Source of the DNA: a virus
DNA length: 33,997 nucleotides
IMG/VR virus record: IMGVR_UViG_3300050821_004497
Span: 1 to 33,997 of that record
Reading direction: 5' to 3' (one strand)
Shown one piece after another: positions 8,613 through 32,971 of the stretch; position 1 is the stretch's first letter; the number at the start of each line of letters is the position of its first letter. The position numbers and the translations under genes were made by a program. The notes under the pieces are model-generated. The model worked only from the letters and a program-made list of their open reading frames with translations, was not told where the DNA came from and did not search any database.

Positions 8613-8984
8613 CTATGCCGCCTTCTCGTCGCCGCCGTACCAAGCCTTGTGGCGCATTTCCGTGGCTTCCTCGTCCTCGTTCTCGGTCGCGAGGTGGGTG
8701 ATCTGCAACTCCACCCGGCAGCAATTCTCCTTGGTGCCGTCGGCCTCCACGCGCTCGTTCTGCGACACCGACGTCACCTTCGCCATGGCGACGAAATGGA
8801 TCATCATGCCGACCTTGGGCAGTTCGCCGTCGAGGCCGAGCTTTTCCAACTCTTCCTCGGTCAAACTGATACACAGTCCATAGGGATAGACCGGCGCCGA
8901 AGGGGCTTCGATGGCCTTCGGCATGTCCTCCTTGATCTCTTCCTGGTCGCGCGCCATGTCGATCATTGTTGAGAAACCTGCCAT
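8613..8984 (-). CDS. Possible capsid staple/accessory protein with WYG tail
   Basis: A 123-residue protein. The core reads YPYGLCISLTEEELEKLGL, LPKVGMMIHFVAMAKVTSVS, then CCRVELQITHLA. The order 'YPYGLxIxLxxxxLxKLG ... LPxVGxxxxxxAxAKVTSVS ... xxLQITxL' recurs in short phage proteins that are often labelled capsid staple or decoration proteins; I make that link from memory. The C terminus ends KAWYGGDEKAA, one of several WYG tags in this window. The upstream sequence AAAGGATAAAATCCC before the ATG provides a good ribosome binding site, so this may be the first gene of a translational block. The capsid-surface role is tentative. Confidence 0.55.
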   Translation of the reverse strand: MAGFSTMIDMARDQEEIKEDMPKAIEAPSAPVYPYGLCISLTEEELEKLGLDGELPKVGMMIHFVAMAKVTSVSQNERVEADGTKENCCRVELQITHLATENEDEEATEMRHKAWYGGDEKAA

Positions 8985-9019
8985 GGGATTTTATCCTTTT
9001 GGTTAAGAGTTGGCACTCA

Positions 9020-10597
9020 TCACGGCACCCCCGGTATCAACTGCACCACGATGTTTTCGAGGGTCATGGTGTCGGTCGCGGTGGCGAGTTGCATGTTCAT
9101 CACGAAGTTTTGGCTGGTTGTGGTGTCAATGGCACCAAACACAGGTGCGGCGGCGGCGCCAGCTAGCGGCGTCGCGGGAATAGGTGCTTGGACATTAGCC
9201 ACTCCACGATTGCAAAACCCAACCTCCTGGCCACCGCCAAGGGCAGTCGTTAGATTGTTGACAAAGAAGTTGTAGGACGAAAAACTGGACGTGAGCGTCT
9301 TTGCTCCTGCGCTGTTATTGTTGCTCCACGCCGCCTTTCTGACAACGGTTCCGTTCACTCCGATTACATTGCCCGCAATCGCCAGCGTATAGCCCGCGAT
9401 GTTACTGCCCGTCGTCTGCGTATAGGCCCCGGGGCCGGTCGTGGCAAAAGCCGTGGGAGAGCCGGGGATGGTCGGCGTGCCGGACGTGTAGGTGTTGTTG
9501 AACACCGTCGCTGCGGTGGTCGAGGAAAACGTCGCGTAGTACCAGCCTGCCGCACTAGCAGCGGCAATCGCTCCGGTAGGCATCCACACATAAGCGTTCG
9601 GGTAAGCCGTCGCGACAGCGGTCAGGCCAGTCAGCGCACCGTTGTTCGCCATCGAGCCGGACGACACCAACACGAACGGGATGTGAGATTGGCCGAGAGT
9701 TTGTGGCGTCGTGATTGGGTTGACAGAGAATTTTGTGAACGTCAGCGGATCAGTCCCGACCGTATTGACCGTCGAAGTCAGCAGCCACGACGTGGTGCCG
9801 TTCACGGTGCCGTTGACGACCGGAATAGCGCCAGTGTTGTTGATGTCGCTCGGCGCATCGTAGTCGAGCGCGCGGGTCAATATCGGCGGCAGGATGCCGG
9901 TCTGGACCTGCGTGACGTAGTAGATGCCGTTAAAAGCGCCGGACGGCGACTGCGTGTCGTTCTTCACCAAGAGACGCTGGCCGAGCGCCGTGAAGGTGAA
10001 GCCGTCGATCACGACAGCCGTGTTCACCGAGCCGGTGAACGTCGCACCGATGCCGGCAACACCGTTGTTGTAGGTAAATCCGCTGGTGTTTGCCGCCGCT
10101 GTGGTCGCGGCTTGAACAGCGACCGCTGGGTTGACACCAGCCACCGCGTTAGCGATTGCTGTAGTGACATAAGCTGTGGTCGGGATTGTGGTTGAATTAT
10201 CAGTCGCGGCCGGTGTTGGGGCTGTAGGTGCTCCGGTTAAGGCTGGTGACACCGTCCCGGCTGGGCCGCCCGTGCCCGACGATGCACCCCCTAGCAGCGT
10301 CGCGACGCCAGCGCCCGGCGTGACCGTCGCCAACGCGCCGAACGCGGTGCCGTTGGTCTTAAGGCAAGTAATAGCGCCGCCGGCCGCTGCCGTACAATCT
10401 CCAGACACCAGTGAGAAAACATAAGTCGCCGCCTGCGACGGCGTACATTTGCGATCGGCACCACCTTGCACGCAATAGAGCAATTCCGAGCCGGCCAGCG
10501 CGGACGCCGCAGTCATGGCGGCAACCGTGCTGTCAGCAGCCCGCACTGGCGACGCGAGTGCAAGGACGGCGGCGAGCGCGATCAGAAATCTTCGCAT
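9020..10597 (-). CDS. Secreted or tail-fibre-like protein with Sec signal peptide
   Basis: A 525-residue protein. The first 22 residues (MRRFLIALAAVLALASPVRA) form a textbook Sec signal: two Arg, a hydrophobic Leu/Ala core, and a VRA cleavage site. The mature part is Gly/Ala/Thr/Ser-rich, with stretches such as TPAATDNSTTIPTTAYVTTA that are common in phage tail-fibre or collar regions, followed by a beta-rich body (GQRLLVKNDTQSPSGAFNGI YYVT pattern, then LTRALDYD). The latter is the 'G.RvLVKdqt...NGiYvV....w.RA.D.d' module of phage tail-fibre/tip proteins. A receptor-binding role fits, but a signal peptide is odd for a protein assembled in the cytoplasm. Three neighbours share this oddity. 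Confidence 0.65.
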   Translation of the reverse strand: MRRFLIALAAVLALASPVRAADSTVAAMTAASALAGSELLYCVQGGADRKCTPSQAATYVFSLVSGDCTAAAGGAITCLKTNGTAFGALATVTPGAGVATLLGGASSGTGGPAGTVSPALTGAPTAPTPAATDNSTTIPTTAYVTTAIANAVAGVNPAVAVQAATTAAANTSGFTYNNGVAGIGATFTGSVNTAVVIDGFTFTALGQRLLVKNDTQSPSGAFNGIYYVTQVQTGILPPILTRALDYDAPSDINNTGAIPVVNGTVNGTTSWLLTSTVNTVGTDPLTFTKFSVNPITTPQTLGQSHIPFVLVSSGSMANNGALTGLTAVATAYPNAYVWMPTGAIAAASAAGWYYATFSSTTAATVFNNTYTSGTPTIPGSPTAFATTGPGAYTQTTGSNIAGYTLAIAGNVIGVNGTVVRKAAWSNNNSAGAKTLTSSFSSYNFFVNNLTTALGGGQEVGFCNRGVANVQAPIPATPLAGAAAAPVFGAIDTTTSQNFVMNMQLATATDTMTLENIVVQLIPGVP

Positions 10598-10598
10598 A

Positions 10599-10811
10599 TC
10601 AGCAGCCTCCGGCTAGACAAATTCTGCTTGCGGCGTCGGTTTGCAGGAGACGCGACGTACCATCGACCAACAGCAATAGATTGGTTGGCGCAGCACCGCC
10701 GCCAGCACCCCACGGCGGCACATGACCAGCGGGCGACATGATCCACGGCTGCGCCCATGCCGCTCCGAACAGTGCCAGCGTGATGAGCGATGCGAGCAAC
10801 AATACGCGCAT
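10599..10811 (-). CDS. Small exported protein (Sec signal peptide)
   Basis: A 70-residue protein starting MRVLLLASLITLALFGAAWA, a clear signal peptide with probable cleavage after AWA. The remaining 50 residues are short and Gly/Pro-rich with 'NLLLLVDGTSRLLQTDAASR' and end CLAGGC. The ATG at 10811 lies two bases after the stop of the 139-residue exported protein, so the pair look coupled; a longer frame to 10991 runs over that gene. The stop lies one base before the start of the 525-residue signal-peptide protein. Function unknown; the mature part is too short for a catalytic domain. Confidence 0.6.
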   Translation of the reverse strand: MRVLLLASLITLALFGAAWAQPWIMSPAGHVPPWGAGGGAAPTNLLLLVDGTSRLLQTDAASRICLAGGC

Positions 10812-10813
10812 GG

Positions 10814-11233
10814 TCAGAACTGCGTGTAATAGACGATCGCCTGCACCGCGACGCCCGCAGACACGTTGATGCACAGATCGTTGGAGGCGGGAACGGGAGG
10901 AAGTCCGGTATAGACCGGAAGATGATCGACGTCCCCGGTCTGCGCGGTGAAACGAAACGCCGGCGTCACTGCGGTAGTCCCGGTGCCACACGTTCCGCCA
11001 GTGCCGTACTCGAGCTTCACGGTTGCGATGCCGTTGGAAAAGAAATTGAAGCCGCAGACGTAGATTTGCTTGGCGGCAACGCCGGTTACGAGTTTGGTGT
11101 CACCGCTCGTCGAGGCATCGTACTGCGCCGACTGATTGCACCCAGCCATCTGATTCGGTGAGACCGAGATACCTTGCGCGGATGCGTAGCCGCACCACAA
11201 CAACATCAGACCGGCGGCGATCAGTTTGCGCAT
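10814..11233 (-). CDS. Exported cysteine-containing small protein
   Basis: A 139-residue protein with a signal peptide (MRKLIAAGLMLLWCGYASA, cleavage after ASA). The mature part contains four cysteines (in AGCNQ, YVCGF, GTCGT and DLCIN), compatible with two disulfides in the periplasm. The pattern YDAST...KQIYVCGFNFFSNG, 'VKLEYGTGG', and the C-terminal 'NVSAGVAVQAIVYYTQF' recur in small proteins near tail genes of other phages, as I recall them, but no function is established. A ribosome-binding-like AAAGG lies just upstream of the ATG. It is probably the first gene of the exported trio that continues leftward. Confidence 0.6.
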   Translation of the reverse strand: MRKLIAAGLMLLWCGYASAQGISVSPNQMAGCNQSAQYDASTSGDTKLVTGVAAKQIYVCGFNFFSNGIATVKLEYGTGGTCGTGTTAVTPAFRFTAQTGDVDHLPVYTGLPPVPASNDLCINVSAGVAVQAIVYYTQF

Positions 11234-11294
11234 GGTCTTTCTACCTTTCGAAAATGAGGTGGCGGCTTCGCCCGATTGAGCGTGAACTATGACA

Positions 11295-11312
11295 CTTCCG
11301 GGTTATCACACC
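11295..11312. other. Perfect 6-bp stem hairpin in the gap before the exported trio
   Basis: The sequence CCGGGT-TATCAC-ACCCGG forms a hairpin with a six-base loop within the 170-base gap 11234-11403. No T-run follows on either strand, so it is not a convincing intrinsic terminator. Nothing else is visible in this gap. Confidence 0.3.
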
Positions 11313-11403
11313 CGGACCCAAGCAATCCCCGCCAGCATCGGGCGCGTTTATGACCTACCGGCCGCCCTCGGACCAGGTTGGATCTGGATCGCTCGGGTCA
11401 ACT

Positions 11404-11706
11404 CTATGCAGCAGCCGCGGGTGCGGCGCCGGGTGAAGCGGCGGCAGCGGCAGGTGGCGCGGCACCCGGAGCCGCAGCAGGCGCAGCTGCGGCAGCGGGA
11501 GCCGCAGCACCCGCGGCTTGATTCTCGGCCATAGCCTCCGCGGCCTGGCGTTCCTCCATCTGGGAGTGCTCGTCCTCGTGGAGTTTATGCACGCCGTCGC
11601 GCGCCTTCTGGTGGCGCGCGTGCATCTCCTTGCGCTCGCGGGCGTGGCGCTCGTGGGTGCCCTCGGGCTTACCGGACTCTTTCTTGCCGCCGTACCAATC
11701 AGCCAT
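11404..11706 (-). CDS. His-rich, Ala/Pro-tailed small protein with N-terminal WYG tag
   Basis: A 100-residue protein beginning MADWYGGKKESGKPEG. Residues 18-47 form a strongly charged helix with seven histidines (18, 21, 29, 32, 40, 43 and 47) among Arg, Lys and Glu. The last 38 residues are almost only Ala, Pro and Gly. The ATG at 11706 overlaps the stop of the iron-sulfur protein gene (ATGGCTGA), giving strong evidence for coupling. The histidine cluster could bind metal, which is suggestive beside an Fe-S protein, but this is inference. The WYG motif is at the start here, while in its relatives it is at the end. Confidence 0.6.
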   Translation of the reverse strand: MADWYGGKKESGKPEGTHERHARERKEMHARHQKARDGVHKLHEDEHSQMEERQAAEAMAENQAAGAAAPAAAAAPAAAPGAAPPAAAAASPGAAPAAAA

Positions 11707-11887
11707 TTTTCTCTCCGTACCATTCGCGCGGTTTGCGCTTGAAGAATTTGCACCAGCCGGTCGGCTGGATTTCACCTATCACCGCAGAACACCGATCGGG
11801 CTCGCGGAACATCTCGCACTTTCCACATCGCTCCGAACCATTGGGGCGGTCGCGGTAGTGGACGTCCTTCTTACTTGCCTTTGCCAT
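11699..11887 (-). CDS. High-potential iron-sulfur protein (HiPIP)-like miniprotein
   Basis: A 62-residue protein with four cysteines at 21, 24, 33 and 46. The region CSAVIGEIQPTGWCKFF fits the classic HiPIP signature C-x(6,9)-[LIVM]-x(3)-G-[YW]-C-x(2)-[FYW] exactly, and the preceding pair is C-x2-C within 'HYRDRPNGSERCGKC', the usual start of the short HiPIP form. HiPIPs bind one [4Fe-4S] cluster and carry electrons. No signal peptide is seen, so it would stay in the cytoplasm or the virion. The C terminus is REWYGEKNG. The frame overlaps the previous gene by 17 bases and the next by 8, so it belongs to a dense coupled set of tiny genes. A redox role in a phage is unexplained. Confidence 0.8.
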   Translation of the reverse strand: MAKASKKDVHYRDRPNGSERCGKCEMFREPDRCSAVIGEIQPTGWCKFFKRKPREWYGEKNG

Positions 11888-12038
11888 ACCAGCGCTCGCC
11901 GCGCGGTTCCTTCGGCTTCGCCTTTTCCTCTTTCATGGCCTTGGCGTCCTTGCGGACCTTGGCAATCGGTTTCTTCGCCATCGATTTTTCTCCTGGAACG
12001 GTACGTCGCGCCATGTCGGCGAGGGTGAGGGAAGCCAT
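11871..12038 (-). CDS. Small basic protein with capsid-like leader and WYG tail
   Basis: A 55-residue Lys/Ala-rich protein. Its first eight residues, MASLTLAD, are identical to those of the major capsid protein, followed by a similar 'RR..P..K' spacing. The DNA of this leader is also nearly the same as the capsid gene start. The tail is ERWYGKGK. The ATG at 12038 overlaps the upstream stop as TGATG, which supports starting with the capsid-like leader rather than at a later Met (MARR or MAKK). The rest is a basic, probably helical region (KVRKDAKAMKEEKAKPKEP) that could bind nucleic acid. Function unknown. Confidence 0.55.
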   Translation of the reverse strand: MASLTLADMARRTVPGEKSMAKKPIAKVRKDAKAMKEEKAKPKEPRGERWYGKGK

Positions 12039-12253
12039 CAATCGTAAAGCCCAGACGGTATCTTCCGCAGACGCTGTAGCGCCGCCCAATCGAATGAGGC
12101 TTCGATGCTTTTCCCGTTAGCGGTCTCGCGTTCGACCGAGCGTAGGAACTGCCGAGCAAGCACCGCCAAGTCATCGTCAGGATCACCAAAATGGCGATCA
12201 AGCACCGCATGTGCGAGCTTTACTGCATGGTCAAATTCTTTATTCTCGCTCAT
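12038..12253 (-). CDS. Small hypothetical phage protein
   Basis: A 71-residue protein. Its sequence, MSENKEFDHAVKLAHAVLDR then PDDDLAVLARQFLRSVER, suggests two or three amphipathic helices and no cysteines or signal peptide. The stop overlaps the ATG of the next gene (TGATG), and its own ATG directly follows the stop of the VSxAQR-type gene. Function not recognised. Good coupling on both sides makes it a real gene. Confidence 0.6.
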   Translation of the reverse strand: MSENKEFDHAVKLAHAVLDRHFGDPDDDLAVLARQFLRSVERETANGKSIEASFDWAALQRLRKIPSGLYD

Positions 12254-12448
12254 TCAATCCTCCTTGGCTTTGCCGTACCATTTGCGCGCCGGTTTGCCGT
12301 CCTTGACCTTCGCGGGCAGCGAGCCGCCCGGATCGGATTCGGTAAACTCTTTCGCCACCGCGGCCTTGATGCCACGCTTCGCGGCGGCCTTGGGATTCTT
12401 CTTCGCCCACCACATCAATCCGCGTTGAGCTTGGCTGACGATGGGCAT
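12254..12448 (-). CDS. Small VSxAQR-type phage protein with WYG tail
   Basis: A 64-residue protein starting MPIVSQAQRGLMWWAKKNP, followed by a basic helix and 'VAKEFTESDPGGSLPAKVKD'. Short phage proteins beginning MPxVSKAQRxxM and ending with a 'GKLPxxV' segment are widespread in tailed phages of unknown function; this matches that layout. It adds a C-terminal DGKPARKWYGKAKED. The gene lies just downstream of a probable intrinsic terminator, so it may have its own promoter or depend on readthrough. Confidence 0.65.
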   Translation of the reverse strand: MPIVSQAQRGLMWWAKKNPKAAAKRGIKAAVAKEFTESDPGGSLPAKVKDGKPARKWYGKAKED

Positions 12449-12459
12449 TGCGTCACCTC

Positions 12460-12489
12460 AAAAGCGGCGGATGCCCGAAAGCATCCGCC
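12460..12489 (-). terminator. Intrinsic terminator after the 428-residue exported protein
   Basis: On the minus strand a perfect nine-base stem GGCGGATGC-(TTTCGG)-GCATCCGCC is followed by GCTTTTG. It lies about 30 bases after the stop of the exported fibre-like protein and just before the start of the VSxAQR-type gene. The four-T run is short, so termination may be partial. Confidence 0.65.
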
Positions 12490-12518
12490 AGTTTGGGGGG
12501 ATACACCACGGCTACAAA

Positions 12519-13805
12519 CTAGAGATCGGCGCTGAAGTTGACATTCGCCGCCGTATTGGCACCGACGAGCTGCGAGGAACCGCCAGCAGTCACGGTCGCG
12601 CCGGTTGTGCATGTCACCTTGCCGGCAAAGATCGACGTCGAGGACGCAACGACCGCGAAGCCGGTACATGCCGTCGGGGATCCCGCGGTCGCGGTATCGC
12701 CGAAAGCGGTAGAAGCCGACGCGGTTGCGGTCGGCGCGGCGCGCATGGGCACCGGGAACTGGATCGGGCACACCACCGCCGCCGTCGTCGTCGCCTGACA
12801 CAGCGTAATCGGCACCGTGTTCGCGACGTTGTCGGTGATCTGGTAGTAGGCGCGATATTGCAGGAGTGCTTCGAGCGCCGCAGGTCGACGGTCGAAGGCC
12901 GTGCAGTTGATGGTGGTGCAGTTATAGCCGACGGTCGTTGAGACCTTCGGCGCCAAGGCAAGATTGCGCGTCAGCTGGACGCCGGAGAACGCGATGTAGT
13001 CGTTCGCGCCTGCAGTACCGACCGGAGTAAAGCACAGCGCAACACCCACCTCCGTCGCGGTCACTGGAATGTTTCCGACTGCGGCATAGCGCCCATTGGT
13101 GGCGCTGATGGGGATGACTGCCGCCGTCGCATTGGCCTGGCCGGTCCAACCCGCACCGCCACCGCCGCCGCCGTTAAGACCCTTGGCGAGCGCAGCCGTA
13201 CCCTCATCGGCTCCCGTGCCATAAATGATGTAGGCCGTCATGTTGCTGGAAGCGGCAGAGAAGTTTGCGCCCGCGGTGGCGTGGAAGTCGAGTTCTACGG
13301 TCGCACCGGCCGTCTGGTAGGAATTGGCCGATTCCACCTCCTGCGCCATACAGACCTGGATCACACCAGTTTGACCCGAGGTGCGCGCCATCTTGAACGC
13401 ATATTGAAAGCCGCTCGGCGGCAAGTCGCCCGCGGTCGAATCGCGCGACACCGTCATTGCCGTGGCAGTGCCCGACCAATAGGCCCAGCGATCGGGACCG
13501 CCGTAGGTCAGCGTCGTCGTGACCGATGCGCCGGTCGTGCCGCGCTGGAACAGATTGGTGGTTGCATCGCCGCCGACCAGCAAATTGTTGCGCGTCGGCT
13601 GTGCATTACCGAAGCCGGCCAACGATGCCGTGTTCACGTAGCACGACACCGTGCAGGGAAATTGCAGCGGGACCTGTTCGGTGCCGAGCAGGTTTGTGAT
13701 CTGCTGCATGCCCTGGCTGACGGCCGGGGCCGGAAGGAAGTAGGCGCCGAGCGCAAAGAAAGATGCACAGAGCGCAGCGACGCCGAGGCGTTGCAAAAGT
13801 TTCAT
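12519..13805 (-). CDS. Exported or tail-fibre-like protein with Sec signal peptide
   Basis: A 428-residue protein. The start MKLLQRLGVAALCASFFALG continues to AVSQ, a plausible Sec signal (basic start, hydrophobic core, AVS cleavage). The mature part contains NLLVGGDATTNLFQRGTTG, then a jelly-roll-like beta region (RWAYWSGTATAMTVSRDST, GFQYAFKMARTSGQTG, CMAQEVESANSYQTAG) that resembles carbohydrate-binding or tail-fibre modules seen in phage proteins of the 'N.l.GG....w..G......... .yv.DrW' type. Later come AFDRRPAALEALLQYRAYYQ and Ser/Thr/Ala-rich strands. A terminator follows it. A receptor-binding role is likely, but the signal peptide is puzzling. Confidence 0.65.
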   Translation of the reverse strand: MKLLQRLGVAALCASFFALGAYFLPAPAVSQGMQQITNLLGTEQVPLQFPCTVSCYVNTASLAGFGNAQPTRNNLLVGGDATTNLFQRGTTGASVTTTLTYGGPDRWAYWSGTATAMTVSRDSTAGDLPPSGFQYAFKMARTSGQTGVIQVCMAQEVESANSYQTAGATVELDFHATAGANFSAASSNMTAYIIYGTGADEGTAALAKGLNGGGGGGAGWTGQANATAAVIPISATNGRYAAVGNIPVTATEVGVALCFTPVGTAGANDYIAFSGVQLTRNLALAPKVSTTVGYNCTTINCTAFDRRPAALEALLQYRAYYQITDNVANTVPITLCQATTTAAVVCPIQFPVPMRAAPTATASASTAFGDTATAGSPTACTGFAVVASSTSIFAGKVTCTTGATVTAGGSSQLVGANTAANVNFSADL

Positions 13806-14000
13806 GGTCTATATCGCCGCTCGTCGCGGCGCTCCTGGTTGAAGTGAAAAACGATAGGGCCGGTGCTTTGCACCTTCCCTCGCGTCATGAGATCGAAGCG
13901 TGTTGCTCCACCGCGACCCGGCCCGCTTTGCCCCGTTACTTTCGCTTTGGGGAGCGTGGCACTACCTCACGCTGATAGCTACCTCAGCGCCGCGAGTTCG

Positions 14001-14020
14001 AGGGTGCCAGATGACACCCT
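14001..14020. other. Hairpin in the gap 13806-14061
   Basis: AGGGTG-(CCAGATGA)-CACCCT forms a six-base stem in the 256-base gap before the fibre-like gene. No T-run follows. The same gap also contains, on the minus strand at about 14036-14056, codons for RAWYG out of frame with the preceding gene. No complete gene was seen. Confidence 0.3.
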
Positions 14021-14061
14021 GCTGGGGGCCTTGCGAGCCGTACCAAGCCCTTGTGGTGTTC

Positions 14062-14691
14062 CTATCCCGTCGCCGACGACGGCGAATCGGTTGCGTTGGA
14101 GTTGGACAGCGGCATCTGCGGCTGCGGCGTTCGCTGTCCGGGCCGGCGCTGCCGCGGAGCGTTCGGCGAAGGCGGTGCAACGCTCGCGGCCGGCGGTGCG
14201 CGCCCGGCTTCCATCGGATAACCCTGCGAGTGTGACGAGAACGGCATCGGCGCCTGGTCGCCCTGGCGCATCGGCCGGACTGCAGCGTTGACCGGATGAA
14301 GCTGGCCCCTGCGGGTTTCGGCAAGCCGCGATGCCAAGAGCATCACGCTGCCCCACCACTGATCCTTGGAGATCATTTCGTCGCCTTCCTTCGGGCGAAG
14401 CGTGTAAGCGGCCTCGTTGATGCACTCCTGCGGGATCGCAGCCGCACCGCTCCTTGGCATCGTCGCATGCCAGCGCTCGAGCGCGTCGCCTGCAGCCTTG
14501 TTGAGCGGCTTCCAGGCATCGGACGGCGTCTGGTCCGTCGAGAAATGGTGTCCCGGTTCGATCAGCGTGGGACCGACCTGGCCGGTCTCGTCGGACGCCA
14601 TGATGATGTAGCACTGCGTCAGCGCCTCGTAGGTCGGCGCCTCGATGCGATGGCCGCCGTCGGCGATGTAAAATTCGGGGAGCGTATCCAT
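14062..14691 (-). CDS. Hypothetical phage protein with Pro-rich C-terminus
   Basis: A 209-residue protein. The N-terminal half looks folded: YIADGGHRIEAPTYEALTQ, CYIIMASDETGQVGPTLIEP, HFSTDQTPSDAWKPLNKAAG, and 'LRPKEGDEMISKDQWWGSVM LLASRL'. From about residue 150 it is Pro/Ser/Gln-rich and probably disordered. No family was recognised. It follows the capsid and cement genes, separated from them by the plus-strand HNH remnant and two long hairpins. Just after its TAG stop the minus strand encodes RAWYGSQGPQQG in the next frame, so the C terminus may have been shortened by an indel. Confidence 0.55.
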   Translation of the reverse strand: MDTLPEFYIADGGHRIEAPTYEALTQCYIIMASDETGQVGPTLIEPGHHFSTDQTPSDAWKPLNKAAGDALERWHATMPRSGAAAIPQECINEAAYTLRPKEGDEMISKDQWWGSVMLLASRLAETRRGQLHPVNAAVRPMRQGDQAPMPFSSHSQGYPMEAGRAPPAASVAPPSPNAPRQRRPGQRTPQPQMPLSNSNATDSPSSATG

Positions 14692-14715
14692 TGGTGTTTG
14701 TCCTTATGAGGATTT

Positions 14716-14760
14716 GCGCTGCGCCCCGCGTGGGTCTGCGGAACCGACGGGGCGCAGCGC
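14716..14760. other. Long hairpin (13-bp perfect stem) upstream of the 209-residue gene
   Basis: GCGCTGCGCCCCG at 14716-14728 pairs perfectly with CGGGGCGCAGCGC at 14748-14760, with a 19-base loop. It ends about 25 bases before the minus-strand ATG at 14691. There is no T-run, so an mRNA stability or processing element, an attenuator, or a remnant of a mobile-gene border are all possible. Confidence 0.55.
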
Positions 14761-14841
14761 GTTCACGACTTCGGTGGGAGGGTTCCAGGCACCGAGCCGT
14801 TAGGGGTTGCAGGGGTAGCACAGACAGGGTACATTAGGCGA

Positions 14842-14874
14842 GGTCGCAAGCGTTGCTGCGCTTTGCGACCTCTG
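14842..14874. other. Second long hairpin beside the HNH gene
   Basis: GAGGTCGCAAGCG at 14842-14854 pairs with CGCTTTGCGACCTC at 14861-14874, broken by one bulged T, with a TTGCTG loop. It lies 28 bases before the HNH start codon. Neither strand shows a T-run after it. Confidence 0.5.
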
Positions 14875-14901
14875 ACCACACCGAGCTTGAGGGAGCCCGA
14901 C

Positions 14902-15513
14902 ATGGCTAATACTAAAATCTCCCAATTTCATCGTCCGCGCAAGATCGGCAAGTCCCTAACCGCCGAACAATTACGCGCGCTTGTTCACTATAATCCCGAG
15001 ACCGGCGCGTTCACTTGGCTGCGGCGGGACGAACGGGACCATTACGATCGCACTTGGAACAGCAATTGGGCAGGAAAGATTGCTGGTTGCACAAAAACCG
15101 GAACAGGTTACACGATCATCGCCATTTACAACTAAATTTACTTGGCGCACCGACTCGTTTGGCTTTATCAGATTGGCCGGTGGCCGGCTAACTGCATCGA
15201 CCACATCAACATGAATCGCGCGGACAACCGTTTCGTAAATCTCCGCGAAGCAACACACTCCGAAAACCACTACAATCGCACGATCCAATCAAACAACAAA
15301 GCCGGACTGAAAGGCGTTTATTTTCACAAGTTCAGCAAACGATGGCACGCTCTCATTACGCACGAGGGACGCAAAATCTCGCTCGGCTATTACGCCACAC
15401 CGGAATTAGCAAGTGCTGTTTATCGAGGTGCCGAGAAAATCCTGCGTGGGGTTTGGTCCGATGTAGATCGTGAGAAAGGAAAGACCCCTCTCACGATCTA
15501 CGAAGTCAATTAA
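14902..15513 (+). pseudogene. HNH-AP2 homing-type endonuclease broken by an in-frame stop
   Basis: The plus-strand frame would encode about 203 residues but has a TAA at 15133-15135. Before the stop: MANTKISQFHRPRKIGKSLT, then the NUMOD-like 'LVHYNPETGAFTWLRRD' that opens this family. After it, in the same frame: LAHRLVWLYQIGRWPANCID, HINMNRADNRFVNLREATHS (the HNH core with DHIN and NR..NLR), and an AP2-type DNA-binding domain GLKGVYFHKFSKRWHALITH. Only the stop separates 'IIAIYN' from 'IYLAHRL', so a single base change (AAA or GAA to TAA) would explain it. A TTG at 15142 could restart the second half. The ribosome site GAGGGAG precedes the ATG. It is opposite to all neighbours, as expected of an invading gene. 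Confidence 0.8.
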
Positions 15514-15535
15514 AAAGTGGCTACGACGCCACTTT
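15514..15535. terminator. Bidirectional terminator between HNH remnant and cement gene
   Basis: AAAGTGGC-(TACGAC)-GCCACTTT is a perfect eight-base stem at the meeting point of the plus-strand HNH gene and the minus-strand cement gene. On the minus strand it is followed by TT AATTG, giving a CCACTTTTTAATT end. It overlaps the cement gene's stop codon. Confidence 0.7.
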
Positions 15536-16081
15536 GAAATTTGACCCATAATACGGAAGACTCGACTGCGCGTCCTCGTCGCCGAGCGTGACATCGGCAT
15601 TGACGGTGCCGGCGGTCGCCGAAGTCGAGACCACATAGTTCAACTGCACAAACCGCGGCAGGCCCGCTCCGGTCTTGCGCATCGGCCAATCGAACGACGC
15701 GATGCGGGTGTTCGCCGTGAGAAGAGCAAGCGCAATCGTGTCGGTCTGGATGTACGTCACGAAGGTCAAGTCCGACCGCAGACCGGAAACGTGCGACGTC
15801 GCATTTTCCGGGGCGCCCTGGAACTGCACCTGCAACGACACGATGGTCAGGAACGCCGTGCCGGTATTGACGATGACCCTCGGCGTGCCGGGGCCTTTGC
15901 CGATGCCCAAGTCCTCGCCGAAATAGGTCTCGTTGACCGGGAAGATATAGCCGGCCGGGGTAGGCGTGTAGGTCGTGGTCAGAAGCTGGCCGGTCAGTTG
16001 ATCGTAGAAATTCGTCGATTGTGCCGAAGCGGTGATCGCCTGGGCGTTTGAGAATTGGAGGTTCGCGTCGAGCATACCCAT
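15521..16081 (-). CDS. Bbp16-like capsid cement protein
   Basis: A 186-residue protein starting MGMLDANLQFSNAQAITASA. The 'D..l.FSdAQAiTasA.STN' opening, followed by 'DLGIGKGPGTPRVIVNTGTA', beta strands (FLTIVSLQVQFQGAPENATS) and the end 'RFVQLNYVVSTSATAGTVNA DVTLGDEDAQ' pattern, matches the Bbp16-type cement protein of BPP-1-like podoviruses. Such proteins bind the outside of the capsid lattice and strengthen it. It follows the major capsid gene by 61 bases, and GGAGAG lies eight bases before the ATG. The Met at 16081 was preferred over an unsupported longer frame reaching 16228, which would overlap the capsid gene. Confidence 0.75.
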   Translation of the reverse strand: MGMLDANLQFSNAQAITASAQSTNFYDQLTGQLLTTTYTPTPAGYIFPVNETYFGEDLGIGKGPGTPRVIVNTGTAFLTIVSLQVQFQGAPENATSHVSGLRSDLTFVTYIQTDTIALALLTANTRIASFDWPMRKTGAGLPRFVQLNYVVSTSATAGTVNADVTLGDEDAQSSLPYYGSNFKVAS

Positions 16082-16142
16082 CGGGTGCTCTCCTTTCGAT
16101 TGAGGTTTTGAGGGGAGCGCCGCCGAAGCGGCACCCGTTGGG

Positions 16143-17174
16143 TTACGAAACCGTCGCTTCGGTATCGAGGATCTGGTCGACCACGCCGATTCCGACGTTG
16201 CGGAAGTTGACGATCGGACGGCCGGCATAGTCCTCGGGCCGGAGCAACACGTTTTTATCTCGTATTGCTTGTATGTCGGCGTACTCCCGAAGGGTGCGGT
16301 CCATGATGAACTTCAAACGCACCGCCGGAGCGATGCGGTCGGGAGCGTCGGTCTTGGTGATGCCCGAAACCATCCGCCCGGCAGTCGGCAGACGAACAAC
16401 CGCCTTCGAGAAGATGGCGAAGATGTCCGGGGGCGTGGCGCCCGCGAGACCCGCGGTCGTGGTGTCGAAGTTCGCCATGCGGACGACATAGCGCCAGTCC
16501 TCGATCGCCAGACCGCCGTTGCGCGAGAAATACGACGTGTAGGCCTCGTAACGGCGAGAGGAAGAGTCATAGGCCGGAACCACGTCGCCCTTGTTCTCGA
16601 AGATCAGTCCCGCTTTTGTACCCTTCGGGTAAATCTGGTAGCAGGTCTGATCGCCCAAACCCAACAGCCACGCCGACGTATTCGAGTTGCCGGTTCCGCC
16701 GGCATTGAACACGTTGACGCCGTTCGGCGTGTTGGCGATCGCCGAGAAGTACGTCGAGAAGCCCGAGAACTGCGCGGGAGTGGTCCAGGAATTGCCGTAC
16801 ATGAGATAGCCGGTCCACTGCTGGGACATGCCTTCCATGTGGGCGACGTCTTCCTTCTCGCGGTTGGCGTTGGTGTTTCCGCCGAGGTCCGCGAGTTTCT
16901 TGTCGATCTGGGAATAGGCGTCCAGCATCGCCATGCCGAAGGTCAGTTGCGCGGCGTTCGACTTGGTGTAGCCGACGCCCTGGTTGAAGCGACGGAGCGT
17001 GCCTTGCGGGAGCGACGTGCGCAGCGTGACGACGTGTCCGGTGGTGAGGTTGCCTTCCACCATGGGCATTTCGTCGTCAAGCTCGTTGCATTGCGACATG
17101 AGTTCGGCCATGTCCGCGATTTTCCCCGAGGGGTCCATGCGGCGGCCGATGTCGGCGAGGGTAAGGGAAGCCAT
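16143..17174 (-). CDS. Major capsid protein (BPP-1-like)
   Basis: A 343-residue protein, the length usual for this family. It begins MASLTLADIGRRMDPSGKIA and continues with MVEGNLTTGHVVTLRTSLPQ, YSQIDKKLADLGGNTNANRE, EDVAHMEGM, and WLLGLGDQTCYQIYPKGTKA. The same order (ATLTLADLAKR.DPdG, EGNlPTGH.TTvRTgLP, ysEVDk.laDLnGNtaafR, IYPKGSKAGL) is that of the BPP-1-type HK97-fold capsid protein. No N-terminal delta domain for cleavage is seen; a separate scaffold gene lies upstream. AGAAAGG precedes the ATG by about nine bases. The first eight codons are also found as a leader of a tiny gene at 12038. Confidence 0.85.
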   Translation of the reverse strand: MASLTLADIGRRMDPSGKIADMAELMSQCNELDDEMPMVEGNLTTGHVVTLRTSLPQGTLRRFNQGVGYTKSNAAQLTFGMAMLDAYSQIDKKLADLGGNTNANREKEDVAHMEGMSQQWTGYLMYGNSWTTPAQFSGFSTYFSAIANTPNGVNVFNAGGTGNSNTSAWLLGLGDQTCYQIYPKGTKAGLIFENKGDVVPAYDSSSRRYEAYTSYFSRNGGLAIEDWRYVVRMANFDTTTAGLAGATPPDIFAIFSKAVVRLPTAGRMVSGITKTDAPDRIAPAVRLKFIMDRTLREYADIQAIRDKNVLLRPEDYAGRPIVNFRNVGIGVVDQILDTEATVS

Positions 17175-17198
17175 GAGCGTGAAACCTTTCTGTTGGTG

Positions 17199-18128
17199 CT
17201 AGGCTGTCTTGGCGTCGACCTTGTCGTACCAACCGCGACTGCCTGCATCCTTGGCCTGCCGCTCGCTGAGCGGTTTGCCATCGTTGACGGGTTCGGGTTC
17301 CGCAAACACGCGATAGAGCGCATTGAGCATCTTGATCGTCAGGCGATGGTGCGAGACCCCGCCCTTGTCCATGACGCCAATGAGTTCCGCCGCCTCTTCC
17401 TTGGTAAAACCGGGGATGAGGCTTTCGAGCGCGTACTTGGCATTGCCCAGCGAAGTTTCGATGCGGTTGCCGCCGAGTTCGGGGTCGTTTTTGAGTTCGT
17501 TGACCCGCGTCTCGACGAGCTTGTTCCACACGTTGATCTGATTGTCCGACACGGCCTTGGCGACGCGCTGGATTTCCTCGAGGTGGAAGTTGACCGCATC
17601 CTGCCTGAATGTTGCCAGTGCAGCATGGGGATCAGTCTTCGCGGCGATCTCTGCTTTACCAACGATCTCGTCGAACTTTGCGACGCGAGCGTCGTCGAGC
17701 TTTACGCCTTCGGGGATTGCGAGCTTGTCGTAGGTCGGCGGCGCCTGCGGCTCCTTTGGAGCCTCGGGCTTGGTCTCAGGTTTGGTCTCTGGCTTGGCTT
17801 CCACCTTCTCCTTGCCGTCGGCTTCGGGCTTTTTCTCCGGCTCGGTTTTTGCTTCCGGCTTGGGAGGCTCCTTGGCTTCGGGCTTGGTCTCGGGCGGCTT
17901 ACTCTCGCTTTCCGCGGGAGATTTCTCAGGCTCGGGCGCCTTCGCCTCGGCCTTTGTCTCTGGTTTGGGTTCGGGTTTGGGCGGCTCGGCCTTCACCTCG
18001 GCCGGCGCGGTATCCTTGCCATTCGTAGGCGGCGCAAACTCATGCTTGCCGGAATCGGCGCCAGCCAATGGCGACGCTGGCAATCCAGCGGTCTCGGCTG
18101 CGGGTTCACTCTTCTGTTCGCCGGCCAT
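17199..18128 (-). CDS. Scaffolding protein with long E/K/P-rich linker
   Basis: A 309-residue protein directly upstream of the capsid gene, as for podovirus scaffolds (T7 gp9 position). Residues about 45-130 are an almost pure Lys/Glu/Pro/Ala repeat (KPETKPEAPKEP-type units), probably an extended linker. The C-terminal half is helical: FDEIVGKAEIAAKTDPHAAL, FHLEEIQRVAKAVSDNQINV, YALESLIPGFTKEEAAELIG and MDKGGVSHHRLTIKMLNALY. That last segment, a short 'H...iraL...g' helix pair, is typical of scaffold C termini that touch the capsid. It ends RGWYDKVDAKTA, a variant of the WYG tag. It overlaps the upstream Bbp19-like gene by 23 bases. Confidence 0.75.
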   Translation of the reverse strand: MAGEQKSEPAAETAGLPASPLAGADSGKHEFAPPTNGKDTAPAEVKAEPPKPEPKPETKAEAKAPEPEKSPAESESKPPETKPEAKEPPKPEAKTEPEKKPEADGKEKVEAKPETKPETKPEAPKEPQAPPTYDKLAIPEGVKLDDARVAKFDEIVGKAEIAAKTDPHAALATFRQDAVNFHLEEIQRVAKAVSDNQINVWNKLVETRVNELKNDPELGGNRIETSLGNAKYALESLIPGFTKEEAAELIGVMDKGGVSHHRLTIKMLNALYRVFAEPEPVNDGKPLSERQAKDAGSRGWYDKVDAKTA

Positions 18129-22356: not shown

Positions 22357-22680
22357 TCACGCGAAAGGATGATAGTCGGATTCAATCTCACGCGGATGCT
22401 CGGGCAGACCGTAGCGATACTGCTCGTAATCGATCTTCCGAGCCAGCAACTGCGCCCTACCGCGCATCTGTATTTCGAGCAGGGTCAACTGATGCACATC
22501 CATCGCGGTAATGATCTTTCGAGCGAGGTCCTTGCCGATGCAATCGCGCAGCGCGATGTAGTCGATCAGGCGGTCACGCAGCGCCGGTTCTTCGGAGAGG
22601 ATAGGACGCTGCGGCGAGTTCACATAGGTCCGCGAGTTGGGCAGTCGGAATGCTGGCTGCTCTTTCAGTTCAGCGCTCAT
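22357..22680 (-). CDS. Hypothetical phage protein downstream of TerL
   Basis: A 107-residue helical protein: MSAELKEQPAFRLPNSRTYV, then ILSEEPALRDRLIDYIALRD, CIGKDLARKIITAMDVHQLT, LLEIQMRGRAQLLARKIDYE. The ATG at 22680 overlaps the TerL stop (ATGA), selecting it over a longer frame to 22746. No family recognised. It sits where packaging-associated small genes are usual. Confidence 0.6.
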   Translation of the reverse strand: MSAELKEQPAFRLPNSRTYVNSPQRPILSEEPALRDRLIDYIALRDCIGKDLARKIITAMDVHQLTLLEIQMRGRAQLLARKIDYEQYRYGLPEHPREIESDYHPFA

Positions 22681-23495
22681 CGCTGCCCATACGCAAACGG
22701 CCGATACTCGCTCTCGAAAGTGCCTTGCTGCTTTCCCGTCGTCCAAAGATGCGCCGGCCTAATCGTCGCGACCGCCAATCCCGACATGACGAGATAGCGC
22801 GTGTCGTCCATCAAGTGGTCCTGCTGGCCGTCCTTGATCTTGCCGTTCTCGTCGCGCTGGTAGAACCGATATTCCTTGATCCAGTTCAACAGCGTGCGAA
22901 AGACTTTCAGGCGCCCGGTCGAGAGCCGTTGCCACACCGCGACAATACCCGATTCCGGTCCGGTCAGCGTGTTGTCGGCGATGGTGAGATTCAGCCCGAG
23001 CTCGTTGACGTAAATGTTGAACAACTGCGAACCGTCCTTCTGCCCACGACCTCGAGCGGCAGGATCGATCACGCCCGGAATCCAAGCGCCTCTTGCTTTG
23101 ATCGCTTGCGCGTGGATCGCGGGTTCGGCCTGTCCGCGGTAGTGTTCGCCGTAGAGATACACCACGTCGTTGTCGCGGTCCCAGGCGCCCCACAATGCTG
23201 CAGTCCGTTTCCAGCCGACGTCGAGCGCGTAGCATTGCGGCATCCAGTCGGGGATGACAAACGGGTCACAGACAAATTCCGATTCGGGGACCGGATAGAC
23301 CGCGCCCGAGCCGAGCGAAGGTTTTCCAAGGGAGCGGGCTTCAAACTCGTGCGGCGGGATGCGCCCCTTCTCTTCGGCGATCATCTCCGGGGTAAGATGG
23401 GGACAATCATGCCAGCCCGCCATCACTACAAAGCGGGATCGCTTTTGGATCACTTCTTCTGGCGAACCAGAGGACAGGGATGGCGCGTCGCTCAA
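22677..23495 (-). CDS. terL: Terminase large subunit, C-terminal (nuclease) part
   Basis: A 272-residue frame that holds the second half of TerL. It contains FVVMAGWHDCPHLTPEMIAE, SLGKPSLGSGAVYPVPESEF, then the RNase H-fold nuclease with acidic residues in YALDVGWKR (D92), GVIDPAARGRGQ (D144) and QDHLMDDTRYLVM (D230/D231). It lacks an ATPase domain, which is encoded separately at 27665-28483. The apparent start is TTG, with AGGA seven bases upstream, so it may be translated as its own subunit. Alternatively the codon after TTG (AGC) is the first exon-2 codon of a spliced gene. The HNH stop (TGA) overlaps the TTG. Joined to the N part it gives about 544 residues, normal for TerL. Confidence 0.85.
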   Translation of the reverse strand: MSDAPSLSSGSPEEVIQKRSRFVVMAGWHDCPHLTPEMIAEEKGRIPPHEFEARSLGKPSLGSGAVYPVPESEFVCDPFVIPDWMPQCYALDVGWKRTAALWGAWDRDNDVVYLYGEHYRGQAEPAIHAQAIKARGAWIPGVIDPAARGRGQKDGSQLFNIYVNELGLNLTIADNTLTGPESGIVAVWQRLSTGRLKVFRTLLNWIKEYRFYQRDENGKIKDGQQDHLMDDTRYLVMSGLAVATIRPAHLWTTGKQQGTFESEYRPFAYGQR

Positions 23496-23883
23496 AGTAA
23501 AAATCCTCGCTGTCTATACCAAACTTCTGGCCGCTTGTCTTGTTTGCTGCAGTTGCGGGTTACACAAAGCATCTGCAAATTACTTCGGTTATTTGTTCCA
23601 CCAAGGGCCACAGGTACGATGTGATCGACCGTTGGTTTGTCGCCCAATCTCTTTCCACAGCCTGCGCAGCAATGCCGCTGCGCTTTGAGGATCACCACAA
23701 TATCGTTGTCACTGTAGGAACCAGCCGCTCGCAACCGATGCTTACGCTTGCGTTGGTTTTTAGCTTTGATCGCCTTGCCATGCGCGGACGCTTGGTAAAG
23801 GCGCCTATATTCGAGCATACTCAGCCGATTTATAGCGCGGTAGCGTTGTGCGTACTCGCGGCTGATATGCGGTTTGTTTGCGT
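23492..23883 (-). pseudogene. HNH endonuclease, C-terminal part (cut by transposon)
   Basis: This is the 3' part of an HNH gene whose 5' part lies 3.6 kb away at 27461-27626. The catalytic core is here: CCAGCGKRLGD, VDHIVPVALGGTNNRSNLQM and CVTRNCSKQDKRPEVWYRQR, giving the D-H, N and the zinc-binding Cys. The last Cys pair is spaced C-x4-C rather than the usual C-x2-C. Removing the transposon and one target-duplication copy joins 'ARARRRKY' to 'HANKPHISREYAQRYRAINR' without a frame change, giving a 185-residue protein. Without that, the surviving part could only start at an internal Met (at 23818). Located inside TerL. Confidence 0.85.
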
Positions 23884-25260: not shown

Positions 25261-25470
25261 ATGGCTCAGCCGGAAAAACTCTCTGAGTCCAGAGAGTTGA
25301 CCATTAAATTGCCGATTGAACAGGATGACTATTTGATCTTGCTCGGCACTTTAGGAAAGGGCGGCCGATCCAGAACAGAAATTGCAACTCACATCTTGGT
25401 TCGGGAACTACAGGCCCTCGAAAAAGAGGGGTATCACGAGCGGCGGTTACCTAAGCCAAAGTCGGACTAA
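25261..25470 (+). CDS. RHH-like DNA-binding protein (antitoxin or repressor-like)
   Basis: A 69-residue protein starting MAQPEKLSESRELTIKLPIE. The short strand ELTIKLP is followed by a helix DYLILLGTLGKG and then a turn and helix RSRTEIATHILVRELQALEK, the ribbon-helix-helix layout. Two palindromes lie just upstream. The ATG at 25261 was preferred to a TTG two codons earlier. It ends tail-to-tail with the transposase, sharing 20 bases with it. It could repress itself or partner the nuclease-like protein upstream, but there is a 164-base gap between the two. Confidence 0.55.
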   Translation: MAQPEKLSESRELTIKLPIEQDDYLILLGTLGKGGRSRTEIATHILVRELQALEKEGYHERRLPKPKSD

Positions 25471-26324
25471 TTGATCGCTGCCAATATCCCTTCCACTGAC
25501 GCGACACCGGATGCTTAAGAGCCGCATCAGTGATCGCCAGATAAAGCTCGCCAGTGCTTCGGCGCCGGTTGTCCTCACGCCACGCCATTTCCGATGAATA
25601 CGCCGCAAGGTACGGGCCAGCGATATGATGATGCGTTCCAATTTCGGCGCGGCGGAGCCGGGAGAAAAACGACTCTGCTTGATTGGTGCAGGCATCATCC
25701 GTCGAATAGGCTTCCGTGTGGTTGATGCGCTTCGTGAGATAGCGGGAGTGCAGCGTGTCCCAGCATGACGCCTCGTCTGCGTACACGATGCTTCCGGCTT
25801 TCACGCGGTCCTGAATAACCGGGAGCGACAATTCCTCAGAGCGGCAGACGTAGGGCAGCGACGATCCGTTCCGCTCCCGCATGATGACTACACAACGGCG
25901 CTTGCCGGATTGGTTTTTCCAGAGACGACGGTCGCGGCGGTTTTGCTTGTAGTTGGCCGGTTTGACGTAGCCGCCGAAATAGGCGCCGTCGATTTCAACG
26001 TCGCCAGAAACCTTGCGGTCCTTGATTTCGTCTTACGAAGATCGCGATTGCCAATAGGTAGTCGCGAACAGGCAGCTTGCGGCTGGCGAAGATCGTCCCG
26101 GACGTGACGCTGAATTGGTGCGAGCAAGATTTGCATTTCCAGAGCTTGCGCGTGCGGTAGCTGTAGAGGGCTGCGCAGCGGCACCGAGGGCAGTACGGCT
26201 CGCCCGCGTTGTCGGACCACCGGACCAATTGGAACGCCTCGTAGGCTTCCTCATCCGTCATACGGGCCACGGCCGCTAACGAGAGCGTCCGGGCCTGAGA
26301 GGAAAGGAGGAAATGCTGTGCCAT
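25451..26324 (-). pseudogene. IS1595 (ISXO2-like) transposase with internal deletion
   Basis: The N part, MAQHFLLSSQARTLSLAAVA, a zinc ribbon (CPRCRC, CKSC), and TSGTIFASRKLPVRDYLLAI is in one frame. The rest, DEIKDRKVSGDVEIDGAYFG, GYVKPANYK, SGKRRCVVIMRERNGSSLPY, ADEASCWDTLHSRYLTKRIN, ESFFSRLRRAEIGTHHHIAG and WKGYWQ, is in another. Between 'LAIAIFV' and 'DEIKDRK' (about 26030) roughly 35 residues normally present are missing, with a frame change. The first catalytic Asp (VEIDGAYFGG) and later ones remain. It is therefore probably inactive. The ends of the element are nevertheless perfect. Confidence 0.8.
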
Positions 26325-26655: not shown

Positions 26656-27333
26656 TCATTTGATCGCAACAATCGCTCCAATTATTGCCATGCCGATTAC
26701 CAGCAGAACCGGGATCACCCATTTATAATGCCTCATTTCAGTGGTGAGCGACGTTACGTCGGATGTTAGAGTCCCGACGTTCGCACTGAGGGAGCGCAGG
26801 GTGTTTAGGACTTCCGAAAGGGCCATCCCTTCGCTTTCCGTAATAAATTCGATTTCCTCGGCGCCTAATTCCATCCTCCCTTGGTACGGCCCAGAATAGG
26901 GTTTTTGGGCGGGCTCCTCCAAGCGATGGAACTCGACGGTGAGAAGATCATCTTTGTACGGAAGCGAAACTGGTTTAGGCGTCAGATTCGTCATTCCGAC
27001 GATAAGACGGCCGTGAAATCCAGGATCAATTTGTGGACCCGTAGTGGCGATTATGCCTTTTCGCGCGTATTTAGAGCGAAGCCCAAAACGTGCGGCATAT
27101 TGCGGCCCAAGCTTAATTTCCTCCAAAACGCAAACAACACCAAAGTCTCCGGGAGAGAGTAGGATGTATCCGTCTTGTTTTATGTTGATCTTTTTCTTGG
27201 CACTCGTGGTGGCTCCCTGTTCGCCAACCCGCAGATCATAGCTTGCAGCCTGGACCTGACCCTTATCGAACGGCTCGATAAGAATATCACCCTTGGCGAC
27301 GGCCTCTTGAATTTGCCGATCCGTGAGAATCAT
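26656..27333 (-). CDS. dUTPase/dCTP-deaminase-fold protein with C-terminal membrane anchor
   Basis: A 225-residue protein. Residues 1-150 follow the dCTP deaminase/dUTPase fold: ILIEPFDKGQVQAASYDLRV, LRSKYARKGIIATTGPQIDP GFHGRLIVGMTNL, then LLTVEFHRLEEPAQKPYSGP. The catalytic Glu of dCTP deaminases (in 'VLEFYN') is replaced by Gly (G113), while the dUTPase-type Asp of 'ID..(Y/F).G' (D103) remains. Residues about 168-200 look like a coiled coil (VLNTLRSLSANVGTLTSDVT) and 205-222 a membrane helix (WVIPVLLVIGMAIIGAIVAI), so it is tail-anchored. Dcd-type enzymes are known to protect cells against phages by depleting nucleotides; whether this one acts so, or catalyses at all, is open. GGAGG lies ten bases before the ATG. 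Confidence 0.7.
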   Translation of the reverse strand: MILTDRQIQEAVAKGDILIEPFDKGQVQAASYDLRVGEQGATTSAKKKINIKQDGYILLSPGDFGVVCVLEEIKLGPQYAARFGLRSKYARKGIIATTGPQIDPGFHGRLIVGMTNLTPKPVSLPYKDDLLTVEFHRLEEPAQKPYSGPYQGRMELGAEEIEFITESEGMALSEVLNTLRSLSANVGTLTSDVTSLTTEMRHYKWVIPVLLVIGMAIIGAIVAIK

Positions 27334-32663: not shown

Positions 32664-32971
32664 CAAATCAGCCCCTTTTGCCGCGCCATCCACTCCGGGA
32701 TTGTGACAACGACCACGCCGCCGCGGCCGGGCTCGAACTCGATTTGCGACTTTGGGAGCCAGATCGGTTGGCCGTTGTTGAGCGCCGGCTTTGCAGGATC
32801 GAGGACGCCAATAGCTTTCCCGGTTTGGGCTTTGAGCATCAAGGTGAGGTCGAGCAAATCCGACGCGCCGGTGACCCGCGGGCCTCTGCCTGGTCGTACT
32901 TGGGTCTCATTGTCGCCGAATCGCCCGCGCTCGGGCGGGGCGAACATATCGAAGGTGTCGCGCTGGCTCAT
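32663..32971 (-). CDS. Hypothetical phage protein upstream of the methyltransferase
   Basis: A 102-residue protein: MSQRDTFDMFAPPERGRFGD, LDLTLMLKAQTGKAIGVLDP, WLPKSQIEFEPGRGGVVVVT, IPEWMARQKGLI. The C-terminal 'IWLPKSQIE.......V.v.iPeWlA..KGLI' pattern recurs in small phage proteins; its role is unknown. It overlaps the DUF1937-like gene's end by four bases (ATGA-type) and the next start by TGATG. Confidence 0.6.
   Translation of the reverse strand: MSQRDTFDMFAPPERGRFGDNETQVRPGRGPRVTGASDLLDLTLMLKAQTGKAIGVLDPAKPALNNGQPIWLPKSQIEFEPGRGGVVVVTIPEWMARQKGLI

Follow-up and report, generated by a model that had tools for sequence, protein, structure and literature searches.

The window analysed here, the whole 33,997-base IMG/VR record IMGVR_UViG_3300050821_004497, is a viral contig from soil, and the element under study is a short terminal motif, [R/K]-x-W-Y-[G/D], which is carried in it by the scaffold protein, the gp10-like protein and four small proteins, in one of them at the N-terminus (the tag; Table 1). 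On sequence, the window was assigned to a podovirus of the epsilon15/BPP-1 type, a virus of bacteria: portal (phrog_332), scaffold (phrog_458), major capsid protein (MCP) and a Bbp16-type gene follow one another in this order, a gp10-like gene is also present, and the portal, scaffold, tail and gp10-like genes fall in epsilon15/BPP-1 families. The gp10-like protein matched epsilon15 gp10 (chain 3j40_N, E 7e-8), and the Bbp16-like protein gave weak matches only (8cjz_B, E 0.0012; 3j4u_H, E 0.19). MCP identity was at most about 40% to the best cultured relatives and 63–95% to uncultivated relatives (IMG/VR contigs); GTDB genomes scanned with the capsid alignment yielded 127 pattern matches and no relatives. 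All six motif strings listed in an earlier sequence-only reading of this DNA were found in the window (Table 1). For the 71-amino acid (aa) protein, whose end might be a degenerate tag, no homologue was found in the fetched related loci.

Table 1. Head genes and tag carriers of the window.
Feature	Position	Strand	Details
MCP, GP7/epsilon15 type	16143..17174	-	full-length PF20911 GP7, E 4e-88
Scaffold protein, 309 aa	17199..18128	-	phrog_458, E 7e-12; directly upstream of MCP
Scaffold tail motif SRGWYDK	about 17220-17240	-	near scaffold end
gp10-like protein, 123 aa, ends HKAWYGGDEKAA	8613..8984	-	PF21628 Gp10-like, E 9e-11; WYG 8634-8642
gp10-like tag KAWYGGDEKAA	C-terminus of 8613-8984	-	
Family B small protein MPIVSQAQ..., ends ARKWYGKAKED	12254..12448	-	phrog_16759, E 3e-7; WYG 12272-12280
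55-aa MCP-arm protein MASLTLADMARR...RGERWYGKGK	11871..12038	-	C-terminal tag ERWYGKGK; WYG 11883-11891
Family D, 62-aa four-cysteine HiPIP-like protein, ends PREWYGEKNG	11699..11887	-	WYG 11714-11722
Family G, 100-aa protein, begins MADWYGGKKE	11404..11706	-	N-terminal tag; WYG 11689-11697
71-aa protein ending KIPSGLYD	12038..12253	-	possible degenerate tag, uncertain

Terminal enrichment and agreement with the scaffold tail

The frequency of the motif at protein ends was compared with its background, a check proposed in the sequence-only reading, and the terminal excess expected there was found. In 20 related loci the final 14 residues of called genes held WY[D/G] at 116 times its density in the interior, against 1.5 times for the control dipeptide YW in the same loci. 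In the first 37 loci all open reading frames (ORFs) with terminal WY[G/D] shared the strand of the capsid gene, the opposite strand having none; a handful of such ORFs on the + strand in this count were spurious. When 2.9 million viral contigs were searched with R[G/S]E[R/K]WYGK, seven stretches matched, a stop codon followed within two codons in 7/7, and six of the seven were relatives already known; the scrambled pattern R[G/S]E[R/K]YWGK gave one match.

Among 30 close relatives of the window, nearly every scaffold that could be located ended with RGWY, the variants being TGWY and KNWY. Tails of cultured GP7-type scaffolds read RRLYAASNMNP (BPP-1), SAFYPKK (epsilon15), SAAEVLYGK (phiV10), RAAKLYDKS (BcepC6B), NRMYPDM (CP2) and EIMYPDLK (Carin1), with PfDIW6 (VDAFS) as the exception. 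The gp10-like proteins of these phages match the tail of their own scaffold: QRLYGASSMSA in BPP-1, DAFYPDGEDD in epsilon15, SAAETLYGNGGE (SAAETLYGN) in phiV10, RAAKFYANTPTT in BcepC6B and ARMYADDPSMKD in CP2. Shuffling of partners between phages gave p=0.004 for seven cultured phages, p=0.0009 with the window added and p=1e-5 for 18 phages. In the gp10-like protein of the window, as modelled by AlphaFold2, WYG directly followed a short helix (residues 105–115, low confidence); a Foldseek search of this model against the PDB returned nothing below E 0.4. This family (window 8613-8984; L057:7705-8040, related loci being given by L numbers) is anchored on 3j40_N, an assignment that has been judged likely wrong (PMC9207676). 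BPP-1-type (bbp12) internal virion proteins also end with WY (ADSWYRYS, L047:16470-17165; ANQWYNYS, L046:13053-14045; ANAWYQD, L048:5106-5717) and were set aside as candidates for the same tag, their letters differing from those of the scaffolds in the same phages.

Tag versions differ between phages (WY, LY, RRY, VH, PLHDNPRS), and, as read from the termini, the tags of unrelated proteins follow, through several changes of letters, the tail of the scaffold in their own phage. In L239 the form PLHD[N/H]xRS was found on the scaffold (NPLHDNPRSRQ), the gp10-like protein (SPLHDHKRSR) and family B (NPLHDHPRSPDR), and N-terminally at the start of family G (TSPLHDNPRSRE) and of one further ORF (MANPLHDNPRSP). 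L228 carried RRY on the scaffold, a C-like ORF, the gp10-like protein and family G, and KRY on family B (tags QRRYARGK, KRYGRGPK, AARRYSKG, QRRYGTDE and N-terminal AARRYAKN). The tags of L275 read ERRYRG, EKRFK and FKRYNS, and those of L266 VLYDHPTSTNN, AVLYNKKKT, SPLYTHPRSK and N-terminal RLYDHPTSKK, with LYD[H/N]P[T/R]S common to scaffold and family G in L266 and L242. RRxx[L/M]YG stood on four proteins of L234 (RRQAMYGE, RRSALYGK, RRQTLYGK and N-terminal RRSALYGK), and VH on scaffold and family B of L243 (RRVHSMT, KAVHART). WYG as a general motif, as first proposed, thus gave way to a phage-specific [hydrophobic or R]-[Y/H] motif. Agreement was assessed by permutation of fixed-length termini with BLOSUM62 local scores, computed without a tree in phages picked for distinct tags. 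For scaffold against family B, p was 1e-5 (18 phages), 7e-5 (one WY phage) and 5e-4 (WY phages excluded); for the scaffold C-tail against the N-terminus of family G, p was 5e-6, 1.5e-5 with one WY phage and 1.5e-5 in a third variant. A motif-free search of all ORF tails with own and foreign scaffolds, which was noisy, placed the own-scaffold score above the other-strand maximum in 27/43.

Carrier families, capsid type and other genes

Across relatives the tag is shared by at least eight families that are unrelated as judged by the lack of visible likeness outside the tag, without an all-against-all profile comparison. Besides the scaffold and the gp10-like protein, the carriers comprise families B (MPPVSxAQRR), C (KKWIKGAIKHPGALHRALG and shorter relatives), D (four-cysteine), E (MPWxGKSFxKHNKxL) and F (NPSGTLIDRKHPQ, L008), the KGLW family (KGLWANIHAKRERI; aquatic relatives, ctQRb9) and family G (HERHARER repeats), in whose homologues, from about 20 phages, the phage-specific tag stays near the N-terminus. 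Presence of the tag was then counted against capsid type, with a GP7 MCP or gp10-like protein on the same contig as the capsid marker. KGLW proteins were tagged in 14/15 cases with a GP7 MCP and 0/65 without, most of the 14 tagged copies being close relatives; the corresponding counts with and without a GP7-type capsid were 16/24 and 0/23 for family B, 2/4 and 1/75 for family C, and 3/4 and 0/9 for family E. Pooled over these four families, 35/47 copies with a GP7-type capsid were tagged against 1/172 without, the single tagged outlier being a 506-aa protein. Without this capsid the same family ends differently (...FKESAKTAKK against tagged ...FKESAAEKLYGKDKDKK). Untagged KGLW proteins, a ready comparison in nature for the tagged ones, were noted in L092, L122 and L127, of which L092 has a GP7 MCP and the scaffold tail ALYSNQQNK. 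GP7 contigs and tagged copies are not independent, and the covariation per phage is therefore the stronger argument than the counts of copies. DGKP, which the sequence-only reading had noted shortly before the tag in two proteins, was rejected as a part of it: it is a linker in some family B copies, and the relative in L003 of the 81-residue protein at 18513 reads NGKP where the window has DGKP.

The carriers look like head proteins because, in another phage group, a protein that joins NUDIX and head maturation protease begins with the family B module (L245:8449-11412) and because a putative identification places gp10 in infectious epsilon15 virions (PMC9207676). The KGLWANIHAKRERI module likewise occurs in fused form, joined to a protein of which one domain is labelled toxin by PHROGs (phrog_353; L098:10001-11770).

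Two carriers of the window have further features. The 55-aa protein, the ATG of which overlaps the preceding stop (TGATG), starts with MASLTLADMARRTVPGEKS and the MCP with MASLTLADIGRRMDPSGK, so that its N-terminus copies the N-arm of the MCP, drawn as a helix by AlphaFold2. The same arrangement of arm copy (consensus MASLTLAD[MI]ARR) and tag was found in L003–L006 and L031 (L003:16103-16369; L031:10727-10882). In L003 arm copy and MCP are identical in MASLTLAD while six of the eight first codons differ synonymously; it is therefore the peptide and not the DNA that is conserved, and an origin of the copy at the DNA level was rejected. One idea is that a cargo bearing the tag together with a copy of the putative docking arm may bridge between tagged proteins. 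Family D has four invariant cysteines, which may correspond to those of the [4Fe-4S] site of HiPIP; PF01355 HIPIP scored E 0.04 for the window copy (14.6 bits, Pfam cut-off 22) and, among five family members, E 7.7e-4 at best. Tagged four-cysteine HiPIP-like proteins are phage-encoded in L008, L009, L022 and L027 as well. An iron-sulphur protein inside a phage head would be odd.

Outside the tag carriers, the large terminase of the window is split into Terminase_6C and Terminase_6N pieces (22677-23495 and 27662-28483) about 4.2 kb apart. The intervening DNA encodes an HNH endonuclease (23492-23818), a transposase of the IS1595 type, spread over two ORFs (25451-26324), and a dCTP deaminase-like protein (26656-27333). 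The Rfam search of the window gave no match, and thus no Rfam intron at the terminase either. An HNH_3/AP2 homing-type endonuclease (15142-15513, +) lies on the strand opposite the head genes; in L024, an ORF between scaffold and MCP (8933-9475) resembles it by eye. The ORF at 31632-32693 (-) encodes an adenine methyltransferase of the MT-A70 family whose N-terminal part is DUF3102.

A putative capsid-docking tail and cargo tag

For the terminal position of the tag, its sharing, its covariation with the scaffold and its dependence on capsid type, the reading preferred here is that the terminal WY motif is the scaffold's capsid-docking tail, reused by unrelated small late proteins to enter the procapsid; its probability is put at about two in three, on the basis of sequence comparison. 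The extreme C-terminus of the scaffold, an amphipathic stretch followed by [R/K]-x-[W/L/R]-[Y/H]-[G/D/N], would dock on the inner face of the GP7-type MCP during head assembly, small proteins ending (in family G, beginning) with the same few residues would dock at equivalent MCP sites, and the docked proteins would ride into the procapsid as minor head proteins. A single pocket reading every tag would explain why the letters shift jointly within a lineage. The common docking partner that the sequence-only reading had suggested gained support from the covariation of tag and scaffold within phages and from the untagged state of the same families without a GP7 capsid. Of the two partners it had named, capsid or scaffold, the MCP is the likelier reader because the scaffold itself bears the tag; binding in the interior and recruitment into the procapsid, the latter also named there, are what we infer.

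Several results weigh against this reading. The tail remained undocked (predicted local distance difference test, pLDDT, 32–34) when AlphaFold2 was given the scaffold tail tethered to the MCP, in a construct of two in-frame genes with the TAG between them read as Q; possibly, the site needs several MCP copies. The permutation tests took no tree into account, the motif-free search of ORF tails was only modestly significant (Fisher p=8e-4, and 0.012 with one WY phage), and MCP columns that change with tag type were inseparable from phylogeny and were not used as support. The pooled contrast between presence and absence of the GP7-type capsid counts copies on related GP7 contigs and not independent events, and some contigs in the set without the capsid are fragments from which the capsid gene might be missing. 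Finally, in several GP7 phages (L234, L238, L242, L256, L266) the gp10-like protein is untagged, as are copies of family B, C or KGLW in some (L260, L191, L092), so that in certain lineages these proteins do without the tag.

Since covariation implies a common partner without naming it, and since no docking site was apparent in the AlphaFold2 model of the MCP, the same tag might be read by the portal, an ejection protein or the scaffold body and still act in assembly or recruitment. This was considered unlikely: in the structures available (80alpha, P22; PMC5644958, PMC12749128) the C-terminus of the scaffold touches the coat protein, and presence of the tag follows the GP7-type MCP, though portal and MCP travel together. 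Decoration of the shell exterior, an outer-surface or cement role, is suggested by the name 'decoration' protein for gp10, by the modelling of epsilon15 gp10 as a surface staple (3j40) and by the N-terminal peptide of the BPP-1 MCP, which reaches the surface cement protein (PMC3863775) and whose counterpart, the MCP arm, is copied by a tagged protein. The outer density assigned to epsilon15 gp10 better fits a 130-aa protein, however, the gp10 assignment being judged likely incorrect (PMC9207676), so that the location of gp10 is left open; BPP-1 and Carin1 use a protein of the Bbp16/gp8 type as cement, and the scaffold, an inside protein, bears the same tag. A surface role was accordingly held to be improbable.

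About as little credit was given to a processing or turnover signal, that is, a site of cleavage, modification or degradation common to head proteins, which would suit the name 'protease' given to the scaffold family in PHROGs. The tag is conserved at either protein end (N-terminal in family G), contrary to C-end degrons and end-specific processing, and its letters differ between phages and agree within each, which a protease or host ligase need not require unless it coevolves. The least probable reading puts the tag down to chance or base composition, to overlapping start codons (an ATG lies within TGGTATGG) or to a recent duplication of DNA. One tag of the window does overlap the ATG of the next gene (arm protein and HiPIP-like protein, 11887), but the tag tyrosine is encoded by TAC in 121 ORFs and by TAT in 35, so that such an ATG is absent from most tags; the scrambled and opposite-strand controls were empty or nearly so, and covariation of the letters between unrelated families contradicts chance and duplication.

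If the tag is a docking tail reused by cargo, a wider proposal can be made, tentatively and at somewhat less than even odds: in GP7-type phages one MCP pocket, which at first served the scaffold tail, would let in small proteins, in varying sets, by means of a tag at either end, and shell and tags would coevolve into a private label for each phage. These phages would then have their own equivalent of the cargo loading of encapsulins. The widespread small phage ORFs MPPVSxAQRR, KKWIKGAIKHPGALHRALG, KGLWANIHAKRERI, KSFxKHNKxL and HERHARER would be head cargo, a first placement for small basic ORFs that occur in many phages without a known role, and in one subclade the copy of the MCP N-arm on a cargo would be a candidate docking partner for further tags. 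As a rule, reading the scaffold tail and searching the genome for the same tail would predict the minor head proteins of GP7-type phages. The tag bears on how scaffolds recognize capsids and would supply nanocages derived from phages with a loading code that is natural and specific to each lineage; it also agrees with the published doubt about epsilon15 gp10 as an outer decoration protein.

Comparison with known systems

No earlier report of this tag was found in the open-access literature (subscription papers and preprints lay mostly outside the search), and no homology of the tag to the 80alpha RIIK motif, the T4 capsid targeting sequence or encapsulin peptides was demonstrated. The scaffold of 80alpha and CpmB of SaPI1 have in common a C-terminal RIIK motif, in a helix-and-hook form, with which they bind the N-arm (helix) and A/P cleft of the capsid protein, an HK97-fold coat protein, from the inside (PMC5644958); docking in the window would be similar. 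In both systems otherwise unrelated proteins, one of them the scaffold, have a common short motif with basic and hydrophobic residues near the C-terminus, and the low-confidence helix predicted before WYG in the window's gp10-like protein is a further likeness. They differ in sequence and phage group: the 80alpha pair consists of two proteins, one from a parasite, whereas in phages of the window's type five to seven proteins of one phage are involved, some tags are N-terminal and the letters vary between phages. Membership in the 80alpha RIIK family was rejected, the tails reading RGWYD, LYGK, RRY and PLHD, and only the apparent working is similar.

The T4 capsid targeting sequence, compared by description, is the sole feature common to diverse small internal proteins and loads them into the precursor (PMC3012670); a diverse protein set with one shared short tag is likewise found here. 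It targets the scaffolding core, whereas in the window the scaffold carries the tag itself, usually C-terminally in the set. Encapsulin cargo peptides are short terminal motifs on unrelated proteins too, usually C-terminal and sometimes N-terminal, and are read by the inner P-domain surface of an HK97-fold shell (PMC8229669); encapsulins have no scaffold protein or virus particle, and the window belongs to a phage with scaffold, portal and terminase. At the level of families the likeness is to the head modules epsilon15 gp7/gp10 and BPP-1 Bbp17/Bbp20, where MCP and gp10-like protein are of the same families and scaffold and gp10-like protein share a tail (AFYP/AFYP; RRLYAAS/QRLYGAS); there the tag was seen only on these two proteins, and the soil relatives add at least four small-protein families. 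By analogy, the tag would work comparably to the known docking and targeting motifs of 80alpha/SaPI1, T4 and encapsulins but differs from each of them.

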